Shown: positions 41,335 to 43,381 of the stretch, piece by piece | How positions within the stretch are numbered: position 1 is the stretch's first letter | Layout of the letters: every line of letters begins with the position of its first letter | Source of the DNA: Verrucomicrobiaceae bacterium | GTDB lineage: Bacteria > Verrucomicrobiota > Verrucomicrobiia > Verrucomicrobiales > DEV007 | Assembly (NCBI GenBank): GCA_009936795.1 | Contig: JAACDM010000340.1 | Coordinates: forward strand, 1 to 43,433 | Length of the DNA stretch: 43,433 nucleotides | Direction: 5' to 3' | Notes under the pieces: model-generated | Databases searched by the model: none | What the model saw: the letters and a program-made list of their open reading frames with translations, nothing else | Told to the model about the DNA's origin: nothing | Translations under genes and position numbers: made by a program

Positions 41335-41397
41335 AGAACCATTTCTTACCGTGCCCCGAACCGCAGGGAAGGCAGATCGACGCTTGAGTTCCATGAC

Positions 41398-41411
41398 TGT
41401 TCATGAGAACA
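41398..41411. promoter_or_regulatory. Candidate LexA (SOS) operator
   Basis: TGTTC-ATGA-GAACA (41398-41411) is an exact match to the 14-bp LexA motif TGTTC-N4-GAACA reported for Verrucomicrobia. It sits in a longer perfect 12-bp inverted repeat (CCATGACTGTTC at 41391-41402, GAACAGTCATGG at 41407-41418) whose right end touches the ATG of the nuclease-like gene at 41419. Repression under normal conditions and induction by DNA damage are predicted. Confidence 0.75.
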
Positions 41412-41418
41412 GTCATGG

Positions 41419-42183
41419 ATGGCGAGCAACGGCGAAACAAAAGCACACCGGTTTCTAAAACAAGCCGCGCTTCACTGGGCGAAGGCCCAGCGCTACTCCG
41501 TAGTCGCACCAGAGATTCGAGTCCCGCTCTCCTCCTATCGAGCCGACGTCGCTGCCTACCGTCCCCAACGCCCGGCCGATGCGGAAGCCACGCTCGGTCA
41601 AACCGCGATCTTCGAGTGCAAGCAGTCGCGAGCAGACTTCCTCAAAGATGCCCAAGCCACCTTGCCGTCGGTCGAGCGCCTGGCCCAACTCAGACGTCGA
41701 CGTGTACGCATTGAACAACTGCTAGGCATGCATTACCCCTCACTCCGTTGCGGAGACTCGCTCTTCCCCGAGTACGAAAGTGTCGACTGCGTGCGGATGG
41801 AGCATCTCACCTGGCAGCGCATTAATCGCGACATCCAAATCCTGGAAAACCGAGTCCATCACAAGACCAAGTTCGAGAAGCTCGCGCGTTACCAATGCGC
41901 CAACCTCCTCTACCTGGTGACGCCTCCAGGCCTCGTCGACCCTTCCGAGGTGTGCACCGCCTGGGGGCTGCTCGAAGTCGCCCAACTGACAGCAGAAGCC
42001 AGCGATTCTGTTGAAGCCCTCCCAGTACAGTGTCACCTCGCCAAGAAACCCCAATGGATCGAAGCTGAACCCAAGACCCGCCTAGACCTCCTCCAAAGGC
42101 TTGCTGCAAGCGCCTCAACCCGCCTCCAGAGCGCCACAGAGCAGGTCGACACGGTCCTTAAAGGAAGTGAAATTATCGCTTGA
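41419..42183 (+). CDS. Predicted PD-(D/E)XK-like nuclease (MmcB-like), likely SOS-regulated
   Basis: The 254-residue cytosolic protein has an N-terminal domain resembling restriction-endonuclease-fold proteins of the MmcB kind: helical start (ETKAHRFLKQAALHWAK), YRADVAAY with D43, then the strand AIFECKQSRADFLKD with E66-x-K68, giving D-(22)-E-x-K as in PD-(D/E)XK enzymes. The remainder, 85-254, is helical and basic (LAQLRRRRVRIEQLLG, LENRVHHKTKFEKLARY), then strand-rich (LLYLVTPPGLV). A DNA-repair role is inferred from the fold-like motif plus the LexA box at 41398-41411, 7 nt before the ATG. Because the box runs up to the start codon, the transcript would be nearly leaderless or the true start lies slightly downstream. 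Exact family not recognised. Confidence 0.7.
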   Translation: MASNGETKAHRFLKQAALHWAKAQRYSVVAPEIRVPLSSYRADVAAYRPQRPADAEATLGQTAIFECKQSRADFLKDAQATLPSVERLAQLRRRRVRIEQLLGMHYPSLRCGDSLFPEYESVDCVRMEHLTWQRINRDIQILENRVHHKTKFEKLARYQCANLLYLVTPPGLVDPSEVCTAWGLLEVAQLTAEASDSVEALPVQCHLAKKPQWIEAEPKTRLDLLQRLAASASTRLQSATEQVDTVLKGSEIIA

Positions 42184-42228: not shown

Positions 42229-42303
42229 ACCTGCATAGCTCAGCGGTAGAGCGGGTGGCTGTTAACCACTAGGTCGTTGGTTCGAATCCAACTGCAGGAG
42301 CCA
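42229..42303 (+). tRNA. tRNA-Asn (anticodon GTT)
   Basis: Cloverleaf with acceptor arm ACCTGCA (42229-42235) against TGCAGGA (42293-42299), D stem GCTC/GAGC, and anticodon stem GGTGG/CCACT with loop CTGTTAA (anticodon GTT at 42261-42263). The T arm is GTTGG-TTCGAAT-CCAAC, with discriminator G and encoded CCA (42301-42303). The first base is A, giving an A1:A72 mismatch where bacterial tRNA-Asn normally has U1:A72. The 3' end abuts a truncated gene on the opposite strand. Confidence 0.95.
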
Positions 42304-43168
42304 TCTTCAAGTTCGCTGAATACATAGGGCGCATTCGGTTGGACCTTGTCTTGAACGTCTTCGAAGAGGGCGCGGGTCTTCATCCAACTGTCATTGACGC
42401 TGTTGTTCTGTTTGGCGTAGGTGTCTGCGGCTTGGTATTTATTGGTGATGACCAAACGTTTGAGCCATTTCACGGATTTGAAGCCATAGGCCTCTGGCAC
42501 GACGATGCGCACAGGTCCGCCGCGCTCGCCGGTCAGCCATTCAGCGTTGATCTTGTAACAGAGAATGACGGGTAAGAACCCGGGCGGGTCTTAGAGAACG
42601 CGATTGGCCGGAAGCCAGCATTGGAAGAACTGTTTGGGGGCGTCGTTGTGATAGCTATCGTAGTAGACGCTGCGATAGTTCGCCTGTGGCTTCGCTAACC
42701 ACAGCACATCGCGCAGCGGAACGCCTTCCCATAAGCCCATACCTAATGGCTCGAAAAGATTGTTGCAGGAGACGAGTTTGAGCAAACGAACAGCCTTCGT
42801 TTCGGTGACCTTCATGAGATCGTCGAAGGTGAAGGCATTGTCACCTACCTTGGTCATGGAGTTGTCGAGCTGGCACGCTTTCCCGGTCTCGGCTTTGTCT
42901 TCGGGATCAGTTATGTCAAGCGTCCAAGTCTCCTGTTCTAAGCCGACTTCGAGCCGCTGCTCCAGAGGCAGTTTGTAGGGCAGGGGATCGCCCCGCTCGA
43001 CGTTGTAGAAATCGCCCTGAAATACGGTGGCGACAGTTGAGCGATGGCCTCTTCGAGAACAGGTTGTCTCGCTCCCGCCGATGTCGCACCACGAATATAG
43101 GGCGGGGAGGCACACACGCCCAGTGCGGTGATGCTGACTGAGTGGTGAAGGAAGGTGTGTCGATTCAT
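42304..43168 (-). pseudogene. Sulfite oxidase/YedY-like molybdopterin oxidoreductase, broken and truncated
   Basis: Remains of a sulfite-oxidase-family molybdenum-cofactor enzyme exported to the periplasm. It starts at 43168 (MNRHTFLHHSVSITALGVCAS), a Tat-like signal with RR degraded to RH and AGGAG before the ATG. A one-base frameshift at the TTT run near 43030 moves into FYNVERGDPLPYK; the Moco-domain core SCNNLFEPLGMGLWEGVPLRDVLW, with its conserved Cys, and YHNDAPKQFFQCWLP follow. An in-frame TAA at 42591-42593 then replaces a residue between NRVL and DPPG. Homology continues (INAEWLTGERGGPVRIVVPE, YGFKSVKWLKRL) to about 42310 and stops at the tRNA-Asn; the C-terminal dimerisation domain is absent. 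Two lesions plus truncation argue for a pseudogene. Confidence 0.85.
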
Positions 43169-43381
43169 GATGATCCGTTCTCCTGTGCCTAACTTGAGTT
43201 GGAAGGCCATAGCAACGGTGTTCTGATGGGTGACTTGGGGAAGGCCTTCAAGGTGCGGAAAGGGATGAATCCAGTGCTATTGCAAGATTTATTTTAGTAG
43301 GCTTTGTTTCCGGTCATAATGAACTACGTGGAATGTTAGTTTACCCGTGTAATGGTCAATCCCCCATTCACAACCGGAGGC

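Follow-up and report, generated by a model that had tools for sequence, protein, structure and literature searches.

The window, that is, the whole stretch of 43,433 nucleotides analyzed here, comes from a Verrucomicrobiaceae bacterium and carries near its right-hand end a gene for a protein of 254 amino acids, preceded by a LexA-type box and followed by a tRNA gene (Table 1). The same order of DEAD-box helicase, gene and tRNA-Asn is found in the closest relative (G002), whose product is 84% identical to the window protein. The box named in the initial annotation, TGTTCATGAGAACA (TGTTC-ATGA-GAACA), is there exactly as described, is the sole perfect match within the window and lies 7 nt ahead of the ATG, as had been proposed. 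It is embedded in a perfect inverted repeat, TCCATGAC-TGTTC-ATGA-GAACA-GTCATGGA, whose right arm takes in the A of the start codon (41419). The perfect dyad had thus been recognized correctly, but its length had been given as 24 bases; the repeat spans 30 nt, with 26 paired bases in 13-bp arms around a 4-nt spacer. No sigma-70-like promoter was recognized upstream of the gene, and no copies of the spacer sequence upstream of the box were found as repeats in the same genome. With the box so near the ATG there is little space for a Shine-Dalgarno sequence, which makes a leaderless mRNA plausible. Past the tRNA gene, open reading frame pieces on the minus strand (window positions 42240-43210) resemble a decayed gene, and an NCBIfam search with the longest piece returned no name.

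Table 1. Features of the locus, in window coordinates.
Feature	Position	Strand	Basis or remark
Longer perfect inverted repeat around the box (arms 13 bp, spacer 4 nt), extending to the A of the ATG	41390..41419	.	Extension beyond the box not kept in G002
Predicted LexA box TGTTC-ATGA-GAACA	41398..41411	+	Same box before the genome's own lexA and imuA; kept in G002
Gene for MmcB-like PD-(D/E)XK protein, 254 aa	41419..42183	+	Open reading frame, fold match
Codon of D43, predicted catalytic Asp	41545..41547	+	Asp in 91% of some 148 homologues
Codons of E66-C67-K68, predicted catalytic ExK	41614..41622	+	E 89%; K 68%, R 19%
Helical insertion, about residues 80-148	41656..41862	+	Inferred from helices 82-105 and 130-147 and from protein lengths; no room in the 146-residue 3DNX
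tRNA-Asn (GTT), downstream	42229..42303	+	Order with DEAD-box helicase also in G002

The protein belongs to a family present in 123 of the 388 sampled Verrucomicrobiota genomes, nearly always as a single copy. Its invariant or nearly invariant positions include D43, E66, C67, K68, R71, E177, W182 and G183, and the residues D43 and E66-x-K68 are present as initially annotated. Many distant homologues (L100-L146) follow an rpsA-like gene and precede a lipid A acyltransferase-like gene, both named from their translations. Searches of Pfam, NCBIfam and PADLOC assigned the window protein to no family, the one weak NCBIfam row being noise, and tblastn against phage records gave no match. At the curated cut-off of PF06319, the MmcB family, neither the window protein nor any of 18 aligned members matched, and a PF06319 search of the source genome (G000) found none. 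Among PDB sequences, the family profile matched 3DNX best (E 0.038), with ECKxSRxDF in register. Two phage families described as “DNA repair protein”, phrog_2776 and phrog_5429, match both the window protein and an annotated MmcB of Sinorhizobium meliloti, which itself matches 3DNX at 3.9e-30 (phmmer) and PF06319 at 1.6e-79. When the family was compared directly with four rhizobial MmcB sequences by hhalign, the match was weak (probability 0.3%, E 0.21); the four resemble one another at 78-99% and yield a poor profile, which is why we relied on the fold instead.

An AlphaFold2 model of the window protein (mean pLDDT 83) gave a single Foldseek match below 0.001, again 3DNX (SPO1766; E 1.7e-6). 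VIA-align superimposed 143 of the 146 residues of 3DNX on the model (Z 16.3, rmsd 3.3), with PaqCI as the runner-up (Z 10.7); the predicted model thus shares the fold of this MmcB relative. D43 is part of strand 41-48, and strand 61-67 ends at E66-x-K68; these are adjacent strands of the core, the arrangement known from PD-(D/E)XK proteins. The likeness to MmcB suggested by the initial annotation therefore stands on the fold and on the largely conserved residues, but not on a match to PF06319. Judging from the model, the protein is MmcB-like rather than MmcB proper, a wording we chose because of the missing PF06319 match and the helical insertion of about 70 residues.

A protein of this fold under SOS control might still not be a repair nuclease; it could, for instance, bind DNA and have weak catalytic activity. 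Several features fit such a role: K68 is replaced by R in 19% of the homologues (K in 68%), some distant family members have no ExK, and the helical insertion is large. We nevertheless regard it as unlikely, given the fold match to MmcB and the conservation, over about 148-150 homologues, of D43 (91%), E66 (89%), R71 (97%) and W182-G183 (99-100%). The gene is also constrained: dN/dS between the window gene and its orthologue in the closest relative is 0.13, which indicates purifying selection over most of their divergence.

The box was then viewed against the rest of the source genome (6.64 Mb in 739 contigs). Verrucomicrobial LexA reportedly recognizes TGTTC-N4-GAACA. This pattern occurs perfectly six times genome-wide, compared with once for the reversed control pattern; at up to one mismatch the counts are 138 and 115, which is near noise, and we therefore set the one-mismatch boxes aside and restricted the evidence within this genome to perfect boxes. 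Four of the six lie at lexA, at imuA, at a PA0069-family radical SAM gene adjoining nrdR, and at the window gene. The genome's only lexA scores above the TIGR00498 cut-off, and its ATG follows the box at a distance of 8 nt; the same box is thus found at lexA and in the promoter region of the window gene. At the imuA-like gene (NF033429 below cut-off, E 8e-5), which is followed by a Y-family polymerase-like gene, the box lies 6 nt ahead of the start. The third separates nrdR, a name taken from the translation, from the radical SAM (splB-like) gene. The remaining two are located on contig C689, between an aroD-like and a selB-like gene in convergent orientation, and on contig C453, with no obvious SOS gene nearby.

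Some of these sites have features of their own. The perfect box between the aroD-like and selB-like genes is kept in both the source genome and the closest relative (L026:3373-3386 and L147:1001-1014), and it does not precede a gene start. The imuA box of the same two genomes (L004:1490-1525 and L154:1490-1525) is placed inside a longer perfect inverted repeat that runs on for another 11 bp at either end of the box; extended inverted repeats surround two of the six perfect boxes of the source genome. The recA match in the source genome (C601:6505-6720) covers the last 72 profile positions only and falls below the cut-off, reflecting either a contig break or an unusual recA.

The lexA and imuA loci of related genomes served as a control. 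A box with at most one mismatch was found at 26 of 31 lexA loci and 19 of 28 imuA loci, most of them perfect, with a shuffled expectation below 0.1. The distance from a perfect box to the start was 8-11 nt in 11 of 18 lexA loci and 2-9 nt in 7 of 13 imuA loci, and the 7 nt of the window gene are therefore typical. As box and kind of spacing are the same as at lexA and imuA, LexA control is the natural reading of the sequence, and the window box is best read as a candidate LexA operator. A GT following the box, which seemed to be conserved among the sites of the source genome and the closest relative, was discarded as a further mark of such sites (4 of 18 lexA and 4 of 13 imuA sites).

Examining the homologues of the window gene gave a narrower picture. 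Among 147 homologous loci with upstream sequence across Verrucomicrobiota, a perfect box was found in two, the window gene and its orthologue in the closest relative, and 144 showed no box within one mismatch; the third locus has a one-mismatch box about 117 nt from the expected start, which is near chance. Apart from the window gene and this orthologue, the homologous loci match the shuffled expectation. G001, of the same genus, has no box, and its gene lies directly behind a yifB/comM-like gene; the contig of G003 begins inside the gene and hence has no upstream region. The closest relative, in turn, carries the box TGTTCATAAGAACA, also 7 nt before the ATG. All ten arm positions are retained, in noncoding flanks of which 52 of 73 ungapped positions (71%) are identical; given this flank identity, the chance of such retention is about 0.03. 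The extension of the repeat outside the box is not kept. The gene behind this box (L027:1141-1894) is broken: the frame shifts near residue 27, a TAG interrupts it near residue 61, and there is an E66K replacement; the box is intact. The damage may reflect decay or, in part, an assembly error, and since the copy is broken, retention of its box may be due to inheritance rather than present selection.

The box could accordingly be a chance match or a relic in front of an MmcB-like housekeeping gene that, as in the rest of the phylum, is free of SOS control. The 144 loci without a box, the broken gene of the closest relative and the two perfect boxes on C689 and C453 that are not clearly at SOS genes all agree with this. 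Against it stand the perfect box in the lexA/imuA geometry, its full retention in the closest relative amid diverged flanks, and the number of boxes that chance would put this close (within 20 nt) to gene starts in such a genome, estimated roughly from the control counts at about 0.03. Taken together, we consider a chance or relic box decidedly unlikely. We reject as very improbable that the 30-nt inverted repeat acts mainly as an RNA hairpin hiding the start codon, with the likeness to a LexA box secondary: the predicted hairpin is stable (-29.6 kcal/mol, z -6.9) and covers the start, but the closest relative keeps the box and not the hairpin (z -0.03), and a similar extended repeat surrounds the imuA LexA box.

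These comparisons bear directly on the initial proposal of an undescribed member of the verrucomicrobial SOS response, against which homologues lacking the box were to count. As a general statement about the phylum it fails by that criterion, on the 144 of 147 loci; conservation extends to the closest relative and not to the other homologous loci with upstream sequence. As a local claim it holds, the closest relative having kept both box and spacing. With the box in two of 147 loci, the predicted SOS control is lineage-specific and, from the upstream sequences, looks like a local recruitment rather than a general rule. Gain of the box within the lineage would be simpler than its loss everywhere else, a polarity that we infer.

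We conclude that the window gene is probably an SOS gene repressed by LexA, and that its MmcB-like PD-(D/E)XK product is most likely a nuclease of DNA repair. This conclusion draws on the fold match and the conserved residues of the protein, and on the box with its geometry, its counterparts at lexA and imuA of the same genome and the copy of it in the closest relative. By occupying the box, which overlaps the start region, LexA would block the promoter of the window gene. When DNA is damaged, LexA would cleave itself under stimulation by RecA and leave the box, and the window gene would be switched on together with lexA and imuA-imuB. By analogy with MmcB, the product would be a damage-induced nuclease, and its substrate may be crosslinked or otherwise damaged DNA.

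A broader proposal, for which we see about even chances, is that the family as a whole is an undescribed, Verrucomicrobiota-wide sister family of MmcB, distinguished by the helical insertion, which acts as a DNA-damage nuclease and was independently recruited to the SOS response in one lineage, in parallel to MmcB in Alphaproteobacteria. For the family, which has no Pfam model and is present in those 123 of 388 sampled genomes, the present findings suggest a function that can be tested. They also offer a clear example of a repair gene that one lineage of a genus has under predicted SOS control, with its relatives outside the regulon.

Compared with known systems, the source genome resembles the verrucomicrobial LexA regulon in its TGTTC-N4-GAACA box and in carrying it at its own lexA and imuA. 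We know of no MmcB-like gene described in that regulon. DUF1052 is the former name of PF06319. A survey of the PD-(D/E)XK superfamily mentions DUF1052 (PMC1189080). The window protein differs from the MmcB family (PF06319; Caulobacter MmcB, SPO1766/3DNX) in its length, 254 aa compared with about 150-175, in the additional helical segment of about 70 residues, in a W-G-L motif near the C-terminus that is nearly invariant in its own family, and in an SOS box confined to one lineage. It shares with the MmcB family the restriction-endonuclease-like core, the RAD...ExK..S..DF motifs and a C-terminal helix, in the same order. Similarly, Caulobacter MmcB is SOS-regulated, as predicted for the window gene; it confers protection from mitomycin C, and a role in removing crosslinks has been proposed for it (PMC9578287).
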